In this document: in pieces, positions 10,045 through 19,132 of the stretch
Layout: each line of letters opens with the position of its first letter
How positions within the stretch are numbered: the first letter of the stretch is position 1
DNA from: a virus
DNA: 28,556 nucleotides
Strand: one strand, 5' to 3'
Virus record (IMG/VR): IMGVR_UViG_3300021376_000267
Location: 1 to 28,556 of that record
The notes under the pieces: model-generated
Told to the model about the DNA's origin: nothing
Database searches by the model: none
What the model saw: the letters and a program-made list of their open reading frames with translations, nothing else
Made by a program: the position numbers and the translations under genes

Positions 10045-10607
10045 TATACTATTCCTCCAAAGAAATTCTCAGCTGCTAGTGAAATAACATCTGCTATAGA
10101 TGTTGGTAAAAGTGTTGTCTTTTTTTCTATAAAGTTAACAGATGCACCTTGTCCATACCATGAACCTTTTGATATTAAAAACATTCTAGTATTAGCAAGA
10201 ACTGCAGTCACTGATCCTCCCATTTTTAAAGTATCACCTGCAGAAATATCTACATTACCATTGGATCTGATGGTAATGTTTTGATCTGATCCTGTTCCTT
10301 CAAGAACAATAGATCTTGCAGTCAATGTGATGGTCCCATTTCCAGCATCAAGGTGAATATTTTTTGCACTGACTGTCAGTGCCTTACCTTGACTATTAAT
10401 GTTGTCCCCAACAGAAGAAGGCGTAGAGTTTAATTCAAATCCACCATCTTGAAATAATTTTAGGTGAGCATTTGAAGCTGAGTGCAACTCAATTTGTCTT
10501 GTTCTTTTTGCTTCTGTTTCTTCACCAATAAAAACTGACCCAAACTTTGGGTCATTCATCACATAACCTCTAGAAGGTTTCTTCTTTTTACTAGGAGATA
10601 CTGTCAT
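10044..10607 (-). CDS. Baseplate needle-like beta-helix protein (187 aa), related to the gp5 C-terminal domain
   Basis: Seen: after a short basic start (SPSKKKKPSRG) residues about 30-140 are a run of short strands, including ELHSASNAHLKLFQDGGFEL, NIHLDAGNGTITLTARSI and ITIRSNGNVDISAGDTLKMG. This is the pattern of the triple-stranded beta-helix of T4 gp5C and VgrG spikes. The gene overlaps the end of gp5 by 17 bases. The frame could also open at a GTG at 10619 (four more residues); the ATG at 10607 is preferred because it is a standard codon, though neither has a clear ribosome site. Inference: the membrane-piercing needle, encoded apart from the gp5 OB-fold hub. The function is by structural pattern only. 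Confidence 0.65.
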   Translation of the reverse strand: MTVSPSKKKKPSRGYVMNDPKFGSVFIGEETEAKRTRQIELHSASNAHLKLFQDGGFELNSTPSSVGDNINSQGKALTVSAKNIHLDAGNGTITLTARSIVLEGTGSDQNITIRSNGNVDISAGDTLKMGGSVTAVLANTRMFLISKGSWYGQGASVNFIEKKTTLLPTSIADVISLAAENFFGGIV

Positions 10608-12636
10608 GATTTTCTGCACAAAGAACTATTTTCTTGATCTTACTTCTGTTAGTTTCAACTTCAGATCCCTTCACCTTATTAAATCCTAAAACTGCTCTCA
10701 ACACTGCACCTTCTCCAGTATCAGTATTTATTCTGAGTTCTGGAACAACTCTAATATCAGATCCACCATTAATAATCTTAGTAGATACAATTCTACCATC
10801 ATCATCCACAACTGGTTGAATTTCCACATCACTATCACAATATAGATTGTAAATCAAATCTTCAGATGTATATCCTACACCAGTATTTTCAATAATTACA
10901 TCAATAATAGTTCCAAGATATTCTGCACCATCTTCTCCAAGTGGATTTGTCAAACATGGTTCTCCCTCTGGTCCAAGATAATTGAATCCTGGAGATGTTA
11001 TGTCTACATAATCAACTCCTCCAGAACTATTCAATATTGCTTCTGCTCTTGCACCCTTACCAATGTTACAAGCATCATCAATAGAAACAAATGGTGGTGT
11101 TGTGTACCCACTTCCAGAATCTAAAATATCAATACCTAGAACTTGACCTATTGAATCTATAATAGCAATACCATTGGCACCAGATCCACCACCACCAAAG
11201 AATGAAATTTGTGGAAGTCCACATTCAAGACTGACTGAATTACAATCACCAAATGCTGCTGAAACTTCTGGTGGAACTCCAGAGTCTCCACCACCAGTTG
11301 CACCAATCCATTGTTTGTATTGATCTTTACCATCTCTCAGTAAATTCCTAACACCCTGAGCTGGAGAGTAGTTAATGACTGCATTAAACTTCTCAATAGC
11401 ACCTTTGGGTACATATCCTTTGTTCATTTCATAATCAAACTGTGCTTTGCACTCTGCACTTTCACAACTTAAGAATGAAAGTGCTTTATTTGCATATCCA
11501 ATTGCTTGATTAACATATCCCATAACTGATCCAACAGCACCTCCTAATTGTGATGTTGCATCTTGAAGTGCTGGACCAATAGCATCTTCAATTTCATTAG
11601 CAACTGTATTCATGATGCTACCAAAAAATGCCTCTGCAGCACAAAGTGGAACATTTACCACAGTTCCAATCATTTGAAACAGAAATTTAAAAATAAATTC
11701 TGCCAAATTTTTTATAATTTTATTGAAGGCACACCAGATTGTGTCTACAATTTTATCAGTTGCTAATGTCTTAAAAAGTTTAATATCTTTTGGTAATAAT
11801 TTATTAATTTGAGTTTCAAGTAATTTGTAAATTTTTTCAATGATCTTATCTCTAGTAACTTTAATAATTTCACTGAATGCATCTGACATTGCAACTGAGA
11901 TTTCACGAGCAATAGATGGAATATCTTGAATGGTATTTAAAATTGGATTAATAAAGTTATCACCAACTTGCTTTACTGTGTTCAGAACTTTAATAAAATC
12001 TCTAAGTGCTTTTACTACCTTTGCATATGCAGTATTTCCAGACTTACACTGTGGAGGAATATTAACTACAGTATTAACTTCACCTGCTACTTGACCTTGA
12101 GATTCTTTGATCTCTCCCTCTTTGGTATGAACTTCTCCACCTGGCGTTGGAGCACCACCATTAGTGGATGCTCTACCAGTCTCTTTATCCTTATTAAATG
12201 GATTAATTGCAGAAGTTTCTGGTTTAAATGTTTTAAAATCGTTAGTTCCTTGACGCCAACTGTTTGGAGAATCAATGTTTGCTTCCTTAAACAGAGCACC
12301 AATAATAATTGGTTGCTGAGCATCATCACCATCTAAAAAGAATCCAATGACAGTTGCACCCTCAGTTACATTACCCCTTAAAACTGCGCCATCATTTCCT
12401 GCCCCCATTGTTAAGGGAACAAGAACATGTGCCCAAGGCAACTCTTCATCTTTAACTACAGAAGTTGCACCAGGATGATGCCCAATGATTCTAACTCTTG
12501 CTTTGGCACCACCCCAGTCCTTTCCTGATATTCCCGAAGATGGATGTTCATCAACATACTTGGTGACAACTCCAATAAACCACCTAAAGGAATCTCTACC
12601 TAAAAAATTGGGATTAATCAGAGTCTGTTCTAACAT
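10591..12636 (-). CDS. gp5: Baseplate hub subunit gp5 (OB-fold; no lysozyme domain visible), 681 aa
   Basis: Seen: residues about 17-116 match the T4 gp5 OB domain in motif and order: FRWFIGVV, KARVRIIGHHP, LPWAHVLVPLT, VTEGATVIGFFLDG and PIIIGALF. Residues about 205-445 are a long helical, partly hydrophobic region not found in T4 gp5. Residues about 485-650 carry about four copies of a beta motif around G-S-G-Y-T-x-P-P-x-V-S-I. I find no T4-lysozyme-like catalytic segment between the OB fold and the C-terminus. Known: in T4, gp5 makes the central hub with gp27 and carries both lysozyme and needle. Here the needle seems to be the next gene and the wall-degrading domains lie in the two genes near 14-18 kb. 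It is part of the late hub operon. Confidence 0.8.
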   Translation of the reverse strand: MLEQTLINPNFLGRDSFRWFIGVVTKYVDEHPSSGISGKDWGGAKARVRIIGHHPGATSVVKDEELPWAHVLVPLTMGAGNDGAVLRGNVTEGATVIGFFLDGDDAQQPIIIGALFKEANIDSPNSWRQGTNDFKTFKPETSAINPFNKDKETGRASTNGGAPTPGGEVHTKEGEIKESQGQVAGEVNTVVNIPPQCKSGNTAYAKVVKALRDFIKVLNTVKQVGDNFINPILNTIQDIPSIAREISVAMSDAFSEIIKVTRDKIIEKIYKLLETQINKLLPKDIKLFKTLATDKIVDTIWCAFNKIIKNLAEFIFKFLFQMIGTVVNVPLCAAEAFFGSIMNTVANEIEDAIGPALQDATSQLGGAVGSVMGYVNQAIGYANKALSFLSCESAECKAQFDYEMNKGYVPKGAIEKFNAVINYSPAQGVRNLLRDGKDQYKQWIGATGGGDSGVPPEVSAAFGDCNSVSLECGLPQISFFGGGGSGANGIAIIDSIGQVLGIDILDSGSGYTTPPFVSIDDACNIGKGARAEAILNSSGGVDYVDITSPGFNYLGPEGEPCLTNPLGEDGAEYLGTIIDVIIENTGVGYTSEDLIYNLYCDSDVEIQPVVDDDGRIVSTKIINGGSDIRVVPELRINTDTGEGAVLRAVLGFNKVKGSEVETNRSKIKKIVLCAENHDSIS

Positions 12637-12854
12637 CAGTCTTCGTAAATCCTACATTCTAAAGCACCTGGATTTGCATCACAGAACAATTCTAAAGGTG
12701 TTGGATCATGATCATCCTCTGGATGTCTTTCATGATATTGTTCTAATGCTTCCAACTCTTCTTCTGCATGTCTTCTAGACTGAGAAGATGCCATTGCATC
12801 ATCTACAATCTTTTTATCTGTTTGAATGTGGTCTTGGATGTTTTTGTGGGTCAT
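12636..12854 (-). CDS. Small acidic protein between hub genes (72 aa), function unknown
   Basis: A short, charged, helical protein: the first ~45 residues are coiled-coil-like and rich in Glu, His and Gln (EEELEALEQYHERHPEDD), ending in PLELFCDANPGALECRIYED. Its start overlaps the end of the gp27-like gene by 4 bases and its stop overlaps the gp5 start by 1 base (TAATG), so it is translationally coupled to both. Small genes with this tail sit in the same place in other T4-like cyanophages, to my recollection. Inference: a hub assembly factor or minor component. No catalytic motif. Confidence 0.75.
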   Translation of the reverse strand: MTHKNIQDHIQTDKKIVDDAMASSQSRRHAEEELEALEQYHERHPEDDHDPTPLELFCDANPGALECRIYED

Positions 12855-14146
12855 TTCTGTGGATCTCCATATGAATCTCTAACTAGCTTTAGGCCAGTAT
12901 ATCCTTGAGATTGTTCAAAGGTGTGACATAATTCCTTAATTAAATAGTAACCAGATTTTTCAGTATCCTTTTGAATTTTTTGATCAGTTTCTTTAGTTAT
13001 ATTTCCAATCTCCAATTGTATTACATCACCAACAGTCAAATTTAAATTAAGGGGTATAGTTATATTTAACAGTTGACTAAAGGCTAAATTATATCTTGCA
13101 ACTGATTGTGATTGATACTGTTCTCTATTGTCTTTAATTTTGTTTGCTTTCTCTTGTTCTTGTGCAGAAAGTATCTGACTATCTATAACCTTTACCATCA
13201 ATCTTGATGGATTCTTATCAAAGTTCAAAGGTATATCTGGTTTGGTTTTACCAGCATGTTTCATAATATTATAACTTTCTGATAGTTTATAGACATGCTT
13301 TGTGGTGGTTCTTTTATTAATGTCAAAGAAGTAATTGACACTGGAATACATTCCTATTCTTAAGTTCTCAAAGATATTAACATTCTTTTCAAACACTGGC
13401 ATGTTTAGTATCTTAAAGTTTGTTCCAAGATCACCAGATTCTAAAGGAGTTTCATTGTAAGTATACTTTGGAACTTGTTTCTTCTCAGTTGAATTCAATT
13501 TAAATGCTGCCATCAAAGAATCTACACTTCTAAAATTAAATCCATACTTGTTTTCATAGAATAAAAACCCTGCAGTTCCTGCTGTTGGACTTGATTTGTC
13601 CACTGTTGGAATTGACTTTGGGCATAACCATGTCAGAACAGTAAATGGTTTCTTAAAATTTCCCATGAATGAATATTCATTCATAGTTTTTTCTACTTCG
13701 TTAATTCTAGTTGTTTTTAAAACATCTTTTAAAATTTTACTTACTGTTTGTCCTATATTACCATCATACTTTCTTTGAACTCTTGCAGTTTCATTACTAA
13801 AAACTTCTGCTGGAGCCAACTCAAGCAGCATGGTTTCTCTTGTTGATTCTGAAGTGGATCCATAAACTTTGTAAACATAAAAAGTATTTTTAGTCTCATC
13901 AAATTTAATCTGCTGTCCAGTTCCTTCTTGATCAATAATCAATCTAACTCTTTCTCCACCTCTAATAGGAAGTGAGGATAAAAGACCATCAGTATTTGTC
14001 ACAAGCATAGAAACAAAGACTGCTGGAGAAAACAAGTCCTCATAATATCTGATTGCAGATACACAACTAGTGGCATTAATATTCTTTTTCTTATCTAAAG
14101 ACTCAATAAGAAATTCTTTAATCTTGTAATTAAAATATGATGCCAT
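12851..14146 (-). CDS. gp27: Baseplate hub protein, gp27-like (431 aa)
   Basis: Seen: the N-terminal half (residues about 25-130) shows the first tube-like beta domain of gp27/VgrG-type hub proteins, with YYEDLFSPAVFVSMLVTNTD, LPIRGGERVRLII and the later FYVYKVYGS. A helical segment follows (VSKILKDVLKTT), then a second beta region. The length is close to T4 gp27 (391 aa). It lies just upstream of gp5, its expected partner in the (gp27)3-(gp5)3 hub. The ATG overlaps the previous stop by 1 base (TAATG). The name rests on position, size and domain pattern; residue identity to T4 gp27 is low. Late operon. Confidence 0.65.
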   Translation of the reverse strand: MASYFNYKIKEFLIESLDKKKNINATSCVSAIRYYEDLFSPAVFVSMLVTNTDGLLSSLPIRGGERVRLIIDQEGTGQQIKFDETKNTFYVYKVYGSTSESTRETMLLELAPAEVFSNETARVQRKYDGNIGQTVSKILKDVLKTTRINEVEKTMNEYSFMGNFKKPFTVLTWLCPKSIPTVDKSSPTAGTAGFLFYENKYGFNFRSVDSLMAAFKLNSTEKKQVPKYTYNETPLESGDLGTNFKILNMPVFEKNVNIFENLRIGMYSSVNYFFDINKRTTTKHVYKLSESYNIMKHAGKTKPDIPLNFDKNPSRLMVKVIDSQILSAQEQEKANKIKDNREQYQSQSVARYNLAFSQLLNITIPLNLNLTVGDVIQLEIGNITKETDQKIQKDTEKSGYYLIKELCHTFEQSQGYTGLKLVRDSYGDPQK

Positions 14147-16494
14147 TAGAGCAGTGAGTTCAGGAGGACTTTCTTATAAAAACTATTTAACACTTGTTCT
14201 TCACTAGGACCACTTACAAATTCTGGTTCAGATGATCCTTGAGACATCATTTGAGGTCTTTTTGATTGTTGAATAACTGGATATGGAATTACCGTTGGTT
14301 GTGGTGCTCTATATCCTTGTTGATATGGCAAATTAGTTGCTAATGGAACATTAGTTTGTCTTACTGCCCCTCTAACAGAACTTAAAACTGAAGAAACAAA
14401 AGGTGCAGTTAAAGCATTTATTTCACTTTGAGAATATGCTCCAGATTTCATATTACCCAACTCAAATAAATCAACTCCTCTATGTGGACCTGCTAATGGT
14501 TGTTCCCCTGGTTTTGATCTCCAATCCATAGGATATGCGCGATTTCCTTGATTAATCCATGCATTAGAAACAGCACTTTGTTGCCCATGAGATCTGATAA
14601 CACCTTTACCAATACCTCCTTTTTGATCCATATGAATTTCTAATACTTGATATCCTTGCCTTTCCATATTCTCATACCATTTTTTCTGTTGATTCCAACC
14701 AGCATCATCATCAGAAAATGTAGCATCTAAATCCATGTATTGAACTGGAGCACTAGGATTTTGTTTTTTAATTTTGTTATAAGCATCAATTGCTAGTTTT
14801 TTAACCAATGCCTTTTCTCCTGGAGCTCCACCACCAGTAGCATGACCTGGAATAATAATATATCCTTTACCAGCACTTGCCCCTGCTGGTGCATTAGATG
14901 GTGCTCCTGCTTGAGGTGATCCAGCGTTCCATTGAACATGCACATGGTTATAATGTCCAGCTGATTGCCAAATAACATAATATCCTCTTGATCTCCAAAA
15001 CTGAGCAACTCTATCTCCAAGTGGTTTACTATTAACTGGAATATCAATTGCTCTATTTGAGTAGTGTGCAGATCCCTCTACATGAACTCTTTCTACAGTT
15101 GGATCATTTCCTATTCCAGCAGCATGTAGCATTGTATTTTCTCTCAAATGTAATTCATATGGGGTCATAGAAACGTTAGGTGTTCCTCTGCCCAGTGGGA
15201 ATTGATTTCTAAAATCAACTGCATCTTGAACCACCTGAGTATCTGCAACTATATTTTGTCCTGGTGGTGGTGGAGGAGGAGCAGGTTCTCTACCTTCAAC
15301 ATATGTACTTTTTGCTCTTGTACTTGGTGTAAAATTTCTAGAAAATTCTTCAAATTTATTAACTGCTTTTTCATAACTATTCAAAGTTTTTCTAAAGGTA
15401 AGTGCTCCGCCATTTTCCCTTTTTCTTTCAACTTCTTTTTTTTGCTTCTCTGTTTGTTCTTCTAATTTATCTACTCCAGTAATCTTATCAGCTATAGAGG
15501 AAGCAATTAATGCCCCCCCAGTGCTAAATGCTGCACCAATTAATAATCCAGCAACAGTTCCAACACCAGGGAACAATGCAGAACCAATTGCAGCACCAAT
15601 TAATGCTCCACCAACACCTGCTCCAGCCCCAACTCCTGCTTGAATATTACTTTGTCCCCCTGATTTTCTCCCCATAAAATCAAGTCCAAATAAAGCAGCA
15701 TTTAGCAATCCAATTCTTGGAGATATTGATGGTTTAGCAGTTGCCACATTTTCTGCTATGCCACCAACACCTTGCATACCCATTCCTCTAGTCCCAACTC
15801 TCAATCTATCCCCTATGTTTGCAGTTCCTTGAATGATTCTATCACTTGATGCTGAAAATCTACCTGCACTTGAACTTGACATTCCTTGTGCCCATTTTGG
15901 AAGATTTCTAAACTGTTGCATAGATGCATAAGATCTACCAGCAGCAGTTTGAGAATATGGAGTTCCCCAAAATGATCCAGCACTTGCTCCAGCAGCACCT
16001 ATTTGTGGAGTTGTTTGTGCTGCACCTTTATTTCTAATGGCACTTACACCACCCCTCAATAAAGAAGGTCCAAGTGCTATTCCTGCTACCACTAATGCTG
16101 GGCCTAATGCACCCAAGTAATCACCCTTAGATCCTTTTTGAAGTGCTTTAAAAGCAGCAAGTGCTCCTATAGCTTTGAATGGATCATTAGCAGATCCTGG
16201 AGTAAAGAAATTTCCAACATATTTTTTAATGTCTGGAAGTTTAACTTTTACTTTTTGCTTTTTTCTAAAAGATCTATCATTTTGTTTTTGTATTGTTTCT
16301 AATCTTTTTTTATATCTGTTTAGAACTGTTAATTGGGTCTTCTTTTGGTATGTTCCTTTTTCAAAAACCTTCACCAATTTAGTAGAAGATTTTCTAGCTT
16401 GAGTTGATACAGTAACAAGATTATTAATCTTGGTTATCTTTGCTACCAACTTTGGTGTAGTTGTTGGTCTGTTTAAAAGTGTAGATGGATCCAT
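14146..16494 (-). CDS. Hub/tape-measure-like protein with M15-type peptidase and Amidase_3-type domains (782 aa)
   Basis: Seen, in order: basic helical N-terminus; IKKYVGNFF at 89-97; hydrophobic glycine-zipper stretches at about 105-150 and 285-335 (GAGVGGALIGAAIGSALF); helical segment 340-390; Pro linker (APPPPPPP) near 405. Then an M15/VanY-like Zn peptidase pattern: S-x-H477-x6-D484 and H517/H519 in HYNHVHV. From about 544 comes an N-acetylmuramoyl-L-alanine amidase (Amidase_3) pattern: PGH551, E560, EIH621 and E679 in LFELG, matching the Zn ligands and catalytic Glu. Known: such enzymes cut peptide crosslinks and the sugar-peptide bond. Inference: a tail-tip protein that opens the cell wall and may span the membrane during injection. 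It shares its N-terminal plan with the preceding gene. Possible gp29 (tape measure) equivalent. Confidence 0.7.
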   Translation of the reverse strand: MDPSTLLNRPTTTPKLVAKITKINNLVTVSTQARKSSTKLVKVFEKGTYQKKTQLTVLNRYKKRLETIQKQNDRSFRKKQKVKVKLPDIKKYVGNFFTPGSANDPFKAIGALAAFKALQKGSKGDYLGALGPALVVAGIALGPSLLRGGVSAIRNKGAAQTTPQIGAAGASAGSFWGTPYSQTAAGRSYASMQQFRNLPKWAQGMSSSSAGRFSASSDRIIQGTANIGDRLRVGTRGMGMQGVGGIAENVATAKPSISPRIGLLNAALFGLDFMGRKSGGQSNIQAGVGAGAGVGGALIGAAIGSALFPGVGTVAGLLIGAAFSTGGALIASSIADKITGVDKLEEQTEKQKKEVERKRENGGALTFRKTLNSYEKAVNKFEEFSRNFTPSTRAKSTYVEGREPAPPPPPPGQNIVADTQVVQDAVDFRNQFPLGRGTPNVSMTPYELHLRENTMLHAAGIGNDPTVERVHVEGSAHYSNRAIDIPVNSKPLGDRVAQFWRSRGYYVIWQSAGHYNHVHVQWNAGSPQAGAPSNAPAGASAGKGYIIIPGHATGGGAPGEKALVKKLAIDAYNKIKKQNPSAPVQYMDLDATFSDDDAGWNQQKKWYENMERQGYQVLEIHMDQKGGIGKGVIRSHGQQSAVSNAWINQGNRAYPMDWRSKPGEQPLAGPHRGVDLFELGNMKSGAYSQSEINALTAPFVSSVLSSVRGAVRQTNVPLATNLPYQQGYRAPQPTVIPYPVIQQSKRPQMMSQGSSEPEFVSGPSEEQVLNSFYKKVLLNSLL

Positions 16495-16497
16495 TTA

Positions 16498-18225
16498 CTA
16501 CACCACCTGATAAATTAATCTAGAATACATTGCTAAGAAATTATCAGAATATGTAGTGTTAATATTTGGAACTGTAGAATTTCCACCAGATGCTGCTGAC
16601 TGTTGTGGAGAGTCTCCTCCCATAGACATTGGAACCAGTGTTACATTTGGACCTTGTGATGATGGAACAGGAATATTCCTAGAAGAACTTCTAACTGCTG
16701 CATTAAGTTGAGCAGCAGAAGGTAAAATTGGAGATGCAGGTGGAAGAGTTTGACCAGATGAAGACCTTCCACCAGCACCCAAATTCAAAAATAAAGATGC
16801 TGGATCACCTCCAGTTCTAGATCCAATTCTCATTATATTTTGAATGTGCCTAGAAGTATTATTTTCAGAAGGTGGAGAATATGTGTTCATAACATCTTGC
16901 AGAGTTCTCTTTCCAGCATAAGGACCTTGAGGATTTCTAAGATGTCTTGCCAAATATTGAGTTGCTTCTGCATATGACTTTGGAGAAAACCCTTGATGCA
17001 AGATACCAAAAGGATTTTTTGTCCCAACTGCAATACCTGCGCTTCCAAAACTAGACTCTGCCCCTGCCAACCCAGCAACAAAAGCAGGATTTAGTCCTTC
17101 ACTCAAGGCAGTATTATAGATGGCATCAGCTTCTGACTCCATAGGAGTTCCTTTAAGAGTACTTCTAAATTGCTCTATGGTAGAAACTGAACCAGGATCA
17201 ACATTTAATCCTGGAATATCATATGGATCTGACATTGGACCACCAGGACCACCACCACCTCCTCCATTACCAGGACTTCCTTCACCATCACTTGGTTTTT
17301 TGCCAAGTAAAAAGTCAAGTGCTGCCTCAAACTTTCTATTTAAATTTTCAAATCTTTTTAAATCATCCTGAGGAATTGGAACTAAATTCTGAGGATCTAC
17401 AGAACCTTTTTGTTGTTCTGTTAATTGTTCTAATCTTTGTTGAGGTTGATCTTGCTCAGTATTAAACAAACTGTTTGCTAATGCAAGACCTCCACCAATC
17501 AATGCTGCTCTTCCTGCAAATCCTCGCATACCACCAAATCTTGATGCTCCAGCACCTGCTCCTCCTGCTGCTGAGGATGCTGTTGCTGCTGTTCTTCCAC
17601 CACCAAATAACCTACCTACCAATGATGTGACAACACTACCAGCAATTCCTGCTCCAATTGCAGGAAGATATGTCATTCCTATACCAATCAAAGGTCCAAT
17701 AATTTTGGATGGATCTCCACTTAAAATACCTTGCAGCAAATTAAACATTGCAAGTGCTCTGATAGCACCACCAGTTCCACTAAAGAAAGATCCTACATAC
17801 TTTTTAATTGCACCCAGAACATCAGATTTTTTATCCCCCAATTCTCTTCTGCCAAATATTCTTCCTCTATTTGCAATTCTTTTTCTATAATCTTCTACTT
17901 CTTTCTTATTAATTTGTTGAGTATTTTTATAATCTTGTTCTATTACTTGCCTAATTCTATCAAGATTATTGTTAATAATTTCTAAGTCAAGTGTAACTCT
18001 TCCTAGAGATGCAATTTCTCTTCTGGGTGCATCTATAGAATCATCTGCAGATTGTGATGGACGAAATCTATCTACAATCTGTTGAGGAATTGGTCTTTTT
18101 GGAATGAATCCAGAAAGTCTAGTAATCTTTGGCGCACCAAAAAAACTAAATTTACTTCTTGAATTTGATCCAGAGATAAATCTGGAAACTCTTGATTGAA
18201 AGTAATTAAAGTCTTCTGGATTCAT
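16498..18225 (-). CDS. Hub/tape-measure-like protein with glucosaminidase-like (lysozyme-fold) domain (575 aa)
   Basis: Seen: basic N-terminus with a helix (about 70-115); RKRIANRGR then IKKYVGSFF at 140-148; hydrophobic segments at about 150-205 and 235-252; helix 288-308 (FENLNRKFEAALDFLL); poly-Gly linker 318-330; then residues about 350-470 with AFVAGLAGAESSFG (Glu390 as the likely catalytic acid), KNPFGI and SYAEATQYLARHL. This order is typical of GH73/transglycosylase-type lysozyme-fold domains. A Ser/Pro-rich tail follows. The length is near T4 gp29 (590 aa). The start overlaps the preceding stop (ATGA). Inference: a tail-tip or tape-measure protein carrying a glycan-cutting domain, partner of the next gene with which it shares the IKKYVG(S/N)FF block and linker-enzyme layout. 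The exact T4 name is uncertain. Confidence 0.7.
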   Translation of the reverse strand: MNPEDFNYFQSRVSRFISGSNSRSKFSFFGAPKITRLSGFIPKRPIPQQIVDRFRPSQSADDSIDAPRREIASLGRVTLDLEIINNNLDRIRQVIEQDYKNTQQINKKEVEDYRKRIANRGRIFGRRELGDKKSDVLGAIKKYVGSFFSGTGGAIRALAMFNLLQGILSGDPSKIIGPLIGIGMTYLPAIGAGIAGSVVTSLVGRLFGGGRTAATASSAAGGAGAGASRFGGMRGFAGRAALIGGGLALANSLFNTEQDQPQQRLEQLTEQQKGSVDPQNLVPIPQDDLKRFENLNRKFEAALDFLLGKKPSDGEGSPGNGGGGGGPGGPMSDPYDIPGLNVDPGSVSTIEQFRSTLKGTPMESEADAIYNTALSEGLNPAFVAGLAGAESSFGSAGIAVGTKNPFGILHQGFSPKSYAEATQYLARHLRNPQGPYAGKRTLQDVMNTYSPPSENNTSRHIQNIMRIGSRTGGDPASLFLNLGAGGRSSSGQTLPPASPILPSAAQLNAAVRSSSRNIPVPSSQGPNVTLVPMSMGGDSPQQSAASGGNSTVPNINTTYSDNFLAMYSRLIYQVV

Positions 18226-18401
18226 CTATTTGCCTTAGCTGCTTTTTCCTCTTCTTCTTGAATATGTGCTTCTAATAGGGACAAATAAATTTCCCTCTCC
18301 CAAGGAATCATATTTTCAATCTCTGTCAACGAGTATTTATGATACTGAATCAAGGCAAAATTAATTCTATAATAAGATTCTAAGTCCTCATGACTTAGCA
18401 T
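18222..18401 (-). CDS. gp51: Small hub assembly protein, gp51-like (59 aa)
   Basis: A 59-codon frame from ATG 18401 to TGA 18222 that overlaps both neighbours: TAATG with the gp26 stop and ATGA with the next start. The protein is helical: MLSHEDLESYYRINFALIQ, then YHKYSLTEIENMIPWEREIY, then a Glu/Lys-rich end. The core Y-S-L-x-E-I-E-x-M-I-P-W-E-R-E is typical of small proteins that follow gp26 or tail-assembly chaperones in T4-like phages. Known: T4 gp51 helps hub assembly, but it is much longer (about 250 aa), so the equivalence rests on position and on how cyanophages are usually named. The presence of the gene is more secure than its name. Confidence 0.7.
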   Translation of the reverse strand: MLSHEDLESYYRINFALIQYHKYSLTEIENMIPWEREIYLSLLEAHIQEEEEKAAKANR

Positions 18402-19132
18402 TACCCGAAAAAACTTGAGAGTCCCTCCAATACAATTTCATTCTCAACTCCAGTGTTTGGATTCTTAACTACCAATGTATGTGACAGTTTAGGCATTGTC
18501 TCAAAGAAAGATTCAATTTGTTTAAATTGATTAGAATCAAAAGTTTCTAACCACTGAACCAATTCTTTCTTTGTTACATCTGCAGCAGACCAAGATTCAT
18601 CTTTGGTGTATACCATATCAACACATGATGCAACAATATCAAAAGACTTATCTATTGTCTCTTTACTTGTGGTTGGAGCAGAAAAATCAAAGTTATTATC
18701 AATGAATTCTTGAAGTGATGGATACTTCATCTTAACTACAATAGTATCATCTACTTTGATCTCAGACTTATGACCATCTGGAATCAAGACTTCAATTTCA
18801 TCTATGTTTACTTTAACATCTACTTGAGTTTCATTGTCATCAGGACAAGTGACAATCAACTCTACTGATTCCCCAACAGATTTAGCTCTGATATTCAGAA
18901 ACAAATATTCAATATCAAAACTTGGAAGAGAATCAATCTTAACTCCTCTTGTAAGAATGCAGTCTCTTAGCACAGTTTTAACTGCATTTGTGATCTCTTT
19001 ACTATCTCCACTTTCCATAGCAAGGATTAAAACTTTCTCTTCCTTAACTAGAAAAGGTCTATACTTAACTGCTTTTTTATTTGAAGGTAAAATCAACTCA
19101 TAGGTTGGAGTTGCAACTGTAGGTAATGGCAT
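18401..19132 (-). CDS. gp26: Baseplate hub subunit gp26 (243 aa)
   Basis: Seen: the N-terminus MPLPTVATPTYELILPSNKK followed by VKYRPFLVKEEKVLILAME is the hallmark of the T4 gp26 baseplate family. The body alternates an acidic beta region (DVKVNIDEIEVLIP) and helices (SLQEFIDNNFDF), ending in VVKNPNTGVENEIVLEGLSSFFG. T4 gp26 is 208 aa, so the length fits. Known: gp26 caps the central hub with gp28 and may act in tail assembly. It is the first gene of the long late operon that runs to 9319; a CTAAATA late box lies 25 bases upstream. Confidence 0.9.
   Translation of the reverse strand: MPLPTVATPTYELILPSNKKAVKYRPFLVKEEKVLILAMESGDSKEITNAVKTVLRDCILTRGVKIDSLPSFDIEYLFLNIRAKSVGESVELIVTCPDDNETQVDVKVNIDEIEVLIPDGHKSEIKVDDTIVVKMKYPSLQEFIDNNFDFSAPTTSKETIDKSFDIVASCVDMVYTKDESWSAADVTKKELVQWLETFDSNQFKQIESFFETMPKLSHTLVVKNPNTGVENEIVLEGLSSFFG

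Follow-up and report, generated by a model that had tools for sequence, protein, structure and literature searches.

The stretch of DNA analysed here (the window) is a 28.5 kb virus fragment that carries the tail module of a T4-like, Kyanoviridae-like cyanophage; in the phage collection searched, related DNA came from Synechococcus and Prochlorococcus phages. Its genes include those for a gp19-like tube protein, gp26, a gp27-like protein (phrog_350), CP12, gp5, PhoH, gp32 and thymidylate synthase. On the minus strand, to which all coordinates below refer, the order is gp26, gp51, two proteins here called A and B, gp27-like, CP12 and gp5. The gene for gp26, the T4 baseplate hub protein, marks the upstream side of the A-B slot (18401..19132; Pfam T4_baseplate, 2.1e-74; phrog_150, 2.6e-80). 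It is followed by a gene for a gp51-like hub assembly catalyst of 59 aa (18222..18401), assigned by position because gp51 lies here in annotated relatives. Then come A (16498..18225), a tape-measure/hub-like protein of 575 aa with a predicted glucosaminidase cassette, and B (14146..16494), its 782-aa paralogue with two predicted wall-hydrolase domains; lengths and coordinates of both ORFs agree with the first-pass annotation. The downstream side is marked by a gene for a gp27-like hub/tail protein (12851..14146; phrog_350, 6.2e-100), whose phiM12 homologue was labelled gp27 by its annotators. The TGA of gp51 overlaps the start codon (ATG) of A, 3 bases separate A from B, and B abuts the gp27-like gene. 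The gene set therefore seems to form one operon.

The sequence motifs first described for the two proteins are present. In A, IKKYVGSFF starts at residue 140, inside a module common to B (residues 138-198, 17632..17814, IKKYVGSFF... L..GD....L, delimited by hhalign), and a Gly-rich hydrophobic segment occupies residues 175-208. In B, IKKYVGNFF starts at residue 89, inside the corresponding module (residues 87-153, 16036..16236, hhalign), and Gly-rich hydrophobic segments lie at residues 124-153 and 286-335. The Gly-rich hydrophobic middle of B (residues 165-340, 15475..16002) is a second exchangeable module, judging from contigs L105 and L106 (see below). An FE....KFE helix was also found, plus a Gly linker in A and a Pro linker in B. 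The enzymes had been described as the ends of the two proteins. This is incorrect: both are internal, and conserved anchors of about 25 residues come after them (A ...NTTYSDNFLAMYSRLIYQVV; B ...SEEQVLNSFYKKVLLNSLL). The C-terminal anchor of A (residues 542-575, 16501..16602) is identical at 24 of 34 positions to that of contig L017 despite the differing cassettes, and that of B (residues 760-782, 14149..14217, LNSFYKKVLLN) is likewise conserved, with the B-type tail motif.

The cassette of A (residues 342-482, 16780..17202), which is replaced by a different one in L017, had been assigned to a GH73-like domain with E390. The residue is right, and the fold together with sub-threshold profiles backs GH73. 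Foldseek hits 1-6 of the cassette are glucosaminidase or muramidase-effector structures (8yxk, LytB, AtlE, T6SS effector), and the best of them, 8yxk, has a probability of 1.00 and an E-value of 0.012. PF01832 matches the window A at E-values of 6.8e-5 and 0.0056, below the curated cut-off (17.8-21.5 bits in the window and relatives against a threshold of 30.2), and a different A protein matches the GH73 family at 5.8e-12. Searching the PDB by sequence with either protein gave no useful match. The AlphaFold2 model of A has a mean pLDDT of 44, with cassette blocks mostly at 70-85; the low confidence outside the cassette means that no tape-like structure is demonstrated by the model.

Protein B may hold an M15/LAS-like metallopeptidase-type domain (residues 413-525, 14920..15258). 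Its metal-site residues (HxxxxxxD ... HxH; H477, D484, H517 and H519) are invariant over 8 sequences, S-CRM01 and S-SZBM1 among them, and the three residues originally named here, H477, D484 and H517, are right. The fold, however, is the weakest of our assignments: the window has no Pfam M15_4 match, the top 50 Foldseek matches of the B domain model include no M15 fold, and the similarity of this region to Hedgehog is weak. Hedgehog has the same metal fold as M15/LAS. The second enzyme of B is a predicted Amidase_3-fold domain (residues 543-705, 14380..14868). The model of the B double domain has a pLDDT of 61, and its best Foldseek match is the Amidase_3 enzyme AmiP (7b3n; probability 0.99, TM 0.58 by target, E = 0.015), followed by AmiC2 and Rv3717. 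A relative from RB11-B matches the Amidase_3 profile at 0.008-0.024, and B of the window does not attain the Pfam Amidase_3 threshold. The early Amidase_3 proposal was accurate as to the fold and H551, E560 and H621, but the last glutamate is E678, not E679. Since no Foldseek E-value reaches 0.001, the enzyme calls in A and B are to be read as fold assignments plus conserved catalytic residues, and not as proofs.

The two proteins had been proposed to share a common front, and comparison of their N-terminal profiles bears this out over a shorter extent. With 13 A and 12 B fronts of the window's clade as input, hhalign aligned A138-198 with B87-153 at a probability of 96.9, a score of 79.9 and 42% identity, and the maximal scores of sixty column-shuffled and sixty 10-column-block-shuffled B profiles were 25.6 and 49.7, respectively. 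The match is widened by blastp to A90-232 and B39-177 at 30% identity, and the similarity is focused in about 65 residues around IKKYVG. Homology thus stands well above the shuffled controls, but the common front is shorter than had been claimed. Iterative profiles from either window front retrieve the other; with the A front as seed, B enters at 8e-7 in round two and reaches 7e-84 later. No reversed decoys were recruited by these profiles, and the outsiders recruited from the window seeds were truncated or unlisted A/B proteins. Deep rounds seeded with P-SSM7 were less clean, since a few gp5 proteins were drawn in late. In addition, one PHROG, phrog_5453, matches both proteins of S-PM2.

For the distribution of the pair, viral contigs were searched with gp26 and the downstream genes were then read. 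The A-B pair was found in cyanophage-like contigs at every complete slot, in the order gp26-gp51-A-B-gp27-like, and 63 complete pairs were assembled from cyanophages and contigs, isolates included. This rules out that the pair is peculiar to the phage of the window. The first reading knew of no described system with such a split of enzymes over two proteins; the split is general in Kyanoviridae, where database labels for its members are endolysin, peptidase or hypothetical. The copy number varies: S-CRM01 has a lone slot protein of 864 aa that combines a phage lysozyme domain with an M15/LAS-like region, and contig L057 has three slot proteins (827, 950 and 1039 aa).

A tree built on the shared region sorts A from B with 5 label changes, against 27.6 expected by shuffling. 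The starred branches force at least 3 label changes, and many of the deep branches are long and weak. Origin of the pair by duplication, as originally suggested, is upheld by blastp, hhalign, the shared PHROG, the iterative profiles and this tree. The pattern fits one old duplication that was followed, in the group of P-SSM7, S-CREM1, MS29 and S-SZBM1, by exchange or a renewed duplication. The A and B fronts of S-H9-1 are closely alike, so a recent conversion is likely in that phage. The idea that each phage duplicated the gene anew and recently was rejected as a general rule, because a phage's own B beats other A proteins in S-H9-1 only and the tree parts A from B with few exceptions.

Closely related contigs differ by a clean exchange of the enzyme cassette. 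The DNA of contigs L098 and L017 shows 93% identity over 3.2 kb up to A residue 332, is unrelated over the next ~500 bp, and returns to 93% identity across the A tail and the B front. In their A proteins, 310 of residues 1-320 and 59 of the last 66 are identical; the cassettes between cannot be aligned, L098 having GH73 there and L017 a different lysozyme-like domain. An equally clean swap is seen in L105 and L106, in which the Gly-rich middle of B is unrelated and the sequence on either side is 98-99% identical. A proteins with GH73 are paired with an M15/LAS plus amidase B in the window, L097 and L098, and with a B holding an M23-type domain (identified by eye) in L105 and L106. The GH73 A thus occurs with two different B cassette types, which indicates that A and B cassettes assort independently. 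Cassettes also pass from one slot to the other: S-SCSM1 carries the GH73 of A in its B protein, and RB11-B carries the amidase of B in its A protein.

The glycan- and peptide-cutting domains had been said to be split over the pair. The bias is real: Peptidase_M23 is found in 27 of 57 B and 1 of 71 A proteins (Fisher p = 7e-11, near relatives included). Several glycosidase families occur in A and B alike in the same set (71 A, 57 B), and a strict rule by which A cuts glycan and B cuts peptide fails, because S-SCSM1 B has GH73, RB11-B A has an amidase and several B proteins have lysozymes. By contrast with the cassettes, the C-terminal ends follow the slot. Among 81 A proteins, 34 have the A-type NF(L/Y/F) tail and 2 the B-type LN...LL tail; among 64 B proteins, 28 have the B-type tail and none the A-type, with motifs that were picked after the alignments had been inspected. 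As far as the sequences tell, the C-terminal anchors are slot-specific and the enzymes form an internal, evidently exchangeable cassette.

A tape-measure-like nature had been suggested for the pair, and the slot supports it: in Pelagibacter phage HTVC008M and Sinorhizobium phage phiM12 the slot after gp26-gp51 carries one annotated tape measure each. Direct matches of the window proteins to tape-measure PHROGs are weak (phrog_13339, 0.0037; phrog_794, 0.017). S-CAM7 A matches two TMP PHROGs. The HTVC008M tape measure enters the family profile at E-values of 1e-18 to 1e-24; it is absent from the window-seeded profiles, and the link is an indirect one.

Tail lengths given in the papers are 418 nm for S-CREM2, 173 for S-SCSM1, 165 for S-CREM1, 138 for S-N03, 129 for S-H34, 124 for MS29 and 113.6 for S-SZBM1. 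In this set of seven related phages, imaged by TEM in different laboratories and containing one outlier, the length of A follows tail length (Spearman 0.93, n = 7, exact p = 0.003; 0.89, p = 0.017 without S-CREM2). The length of B does so weakly (rho 0.68, p = 0.055, n = 7), and that of the gp27-like control gene gives -0.45. The proposed comparison of tail lengths among relatives thus gives a tentative signal for A and a weaker one for B. A simple length rule does not hold, as tail length per residue of A ranges from 0.13 to 0.27 nm. The lengths of A and B go together (r = 0.83 over 36 cluster means). Relative to S-N03 and S-H34, the A protein of S-CREM2 is longer by 630 residues and its B protein by 728, partly through tandem repeats, and the extra 285 nm of tail amounts to 0.45 nm per residue for A alone, 0.39 for B alone and 0.21 for both. 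A stretched chain measures about 0.35 nm per residue. The values for a single protein lie above this, which would favour a contribution of both A and B, if the 418 nm is right.

Virion proteomics of relatives is divided on the two proteins: both are detected in S-CREM2 and S-SCSM1, but neither is in the table of S-SZBM1. In S-CREM2 virions, there were 73 unique peptides for ORF208 (A, 1565 aa), 71 for ORF209 (B, 1456 aa) and 73 for the tube protein, and the authors class both ORFs as lysis proteins (PMC10665884). The coordinates of ORF208 and ORF209 agree with those of the slot genes. In S-SCSM1 virions, ORF213 and ORF214, which we equate with the slot pair by name and adjacency, were detected, judged unlikely to be structural and allowed as carry-over (PMC9602691); both products of the slot are tagged as virion proteins in the sequence record of this phage. 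Neither A nor B (SSZBM1_67 and SSZBM1_66) is among the 30 proteins tabulated for S-SZBM1 virions (PMC9146016). The authors of the first two papers regarded the proteins as non-structural and perhaps carried along (PMC9602691, PMC10665884).

Taken together, A and B are probably paralogous tape-measure/ejection (hub) proteins that jointly deliver complementary wall hydrolases and go back mainly to a single ancient tandem duplication in the T4-like cyanophages. Their fronts would lie in the lumen of the tail tube, and the different C-terminal anchors would hold A and B at separate sites of the gp27/gp5 hub, which gives, as we infer it, a stoichiometry with both proteins in every tail. The exchangeable cassette, between front and anchor, would then sit at the tail tip. 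Upon contraction, the A/B pair would exit the tube; A would cut glycan strands (GH73), and B would cleave amide bonds through its Amidase_3 domain and probably also peptide bonds through its M15/LAS-like one. Together they would open the thick wall of the cyanobacterium, and passage of the DNA over the inner membrane may be assisted by the Gly-rich hydrophobic segments. More tentatively, the two paralogues (three in one contig) could co-assemble as a heteromeric ruler in which both set tail length and each has its own C-terminal anchor; a cassette swap in one chain would then spare length control and the other activity. In S-CREM2, A and B may act end to end.

A somewhat unlikely alternative is that A is the sole tape measure and B a demoted hub-bound lysin with a tip role like that of T4 gp28 and a different stoichiometry. 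T4 offers a precedent, with 3 copies of the tape measure gp29 and 1 copy of the small hub protein gp28 (PMC3004832). Tail length is also followed better by A (0.93) than by B (0.68), and most peptidase cassettes sit in B. However, B has a front of the same kind and grows with A, and in S-CREM2 the peptide counts are near-equal and tandem repeats were gained in both proteins. With A as the only ruler, each added A residue in S-CREM2 would also have to span 0.45 nm, which exceeds the reach of a fully extended chain.

It is less probable still that both proteins are virion-carried hub lysins, neither of them measuring, with the tape measure encoded elsewhere in the genome. The slot and the profile link to annotated tape measures and the length correlation speak against this, and the slot has no other candidate, even though database labels are mostly endolysin or peptidase, the fronts are modelled at low confidence and some members, such as the 477- and 398-aa proteins of contig L029, would as helices be short for a tail of 100 nm. 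We regard it as very improbable that A and B are host-lysis endolysins contaminating virion preparations. The enzyme domains are compatible with such a role, and carry-over is allowed by the S-SCSM1 authors (PMC9602691), but in S-CREM2 the 73 and 71 peptides are comparable to the 73 of the tube protein (PMC10665884). The placement of the genes in a hub operon whose start and stop codons overlap, the conserved anchors and the hydrophobic fronts argue in the same direction.

Tape measures with lysin domains are already known, and T5 pb2 is a tape measure with a built-in lysin. In enterococcal phages, tape measures are reported to carry lytic transglycosylases, likewise wall hydrolases for delivery at the tail tip; each has one tape measure, whereas here two paralogues divide the cassettes, with the anchor behind and swaps between phages and slots (PMC10194240). 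The T4 hub of gp29 with gp28, gp27 and gp5 resembles the present module with its gp26, gp51, gp27-like protein and gp5, the tape measure being hub-bound; T4, however, has one gp29 (64.4 kDa) without wall enzymes and its lysozyme is in gp5, in contrast to two paralogues with additional enzymes here (PMC3004832). The tape measures of HTVC008M and phiM12 share the slot but are single copies (687 and 567 aa) that follow a membrane-type protein of 110-139 aa, with no wall enzyme noted. Members of the A/B pair annotated as endolysins include S-CREM2 ORF208/209, S-SCSM1 ORF213/214 and P-SSM7 011/012; as far as the accessible sources go, they were published as lysis or virion-associated enzymes and not as paralogous tape measures. 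No account of paired tape measures in cyanophages turned up in the open-access papers searched, and by that measure the paired, cassette-swapping cyanophage form appears to be new.

Phages of the Kyanoviridae type belong to the most abundant viruses of the sea, yet no name had been given to their tape measure and the proteins were catalogued as endolysins. If the preferred reading is true, two paralogous rulers per tail would challenge the view of one gene for one ruler, and the joint carriage of a glycosidase and a peptidase would be accounted for. Phages with single, double and triple copies, together with one tail of 418 nm, would then be a natural set for studying how length is set, and the swap of cassettes between fixed anchors offers a clear view of phages re-tooling their entry through the wall.

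In S-H9-1 (L002:4289-9597), the first ~110 residues of A and B, the paralogous tape-measure-like proteins, are very alike, and A is nearer to its own B than to any other A. Taken together, these sequence likenesses suggest recent gene conversion between the two.

The number of proteins in the slot (the gp26-gp51-A-B-gp27-like gene order) varies. The freshwater phage S-CRM01 (L111:12919-15513) has a single slot protein, which combines an M15/LAS-like region with a phage lysozyme domain; two proteins occupy the slot in each of its cluster-mates S-N03, S-H34 and S-CREM2. The single protein may represent a fusion, a loss or the ancestral state. A tandem trio of tape-measure-like proteins (827, 950 and 1039 aa) is found in L057:5706-14164, compared with two at the same slot in other phages. 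In S-SKS1 (L005:4271-8693), the slot shows up as several short ORFs. Its gp27-like gene, whose protein is among the closest to that of the window, is also broken, and either decay or sequencing frameshifts may be responsible. In B of S-CREM2 (L108:11501-12892), a 39-base unit resembling FQQSMGSVAPAGG is repeated in long tandem arrays; A of this phage carries a Ser/Thr/Asn-rich array. The carrier of both arrays, S-CREM2, has the longest cyanomyovirus tail reported.

In the window, the gene for CP12, a Calvin-cycle regulator (12636-12854), sits in the operon of the tail hub, flanked by gp27-like and gp5, a placement common to several other cyanophages (S-SCSM1, S-H9-1 and P-SSM7). The gp5-like protein (10591-12636) has a hydrophobic helical stretch at about 200-390 that matches tape-measure PHROGs, and A/B profile searches recruit gp5 proteins of other loci at a late stage.

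By eye, an HxH-like stretch (NYHDH) precedes an HxxxxAIDIPG-like stretch in one domain of L057:8189-11041 and L022:11927-13759. This arrangement may represent an M15/LAS-type metal site that has undergone circular permutation. One A protein, from an alignment of A proteins (A10) but not among 20 of its members scanned one by one, matches ADP-ribosyltransferase models (ART, 1.3e-5; ADPrib_exo_Tox, 1.6e-4), hinting that an injected non-wall enzyme may serve as a cassette (exchangeable enzyme domain).
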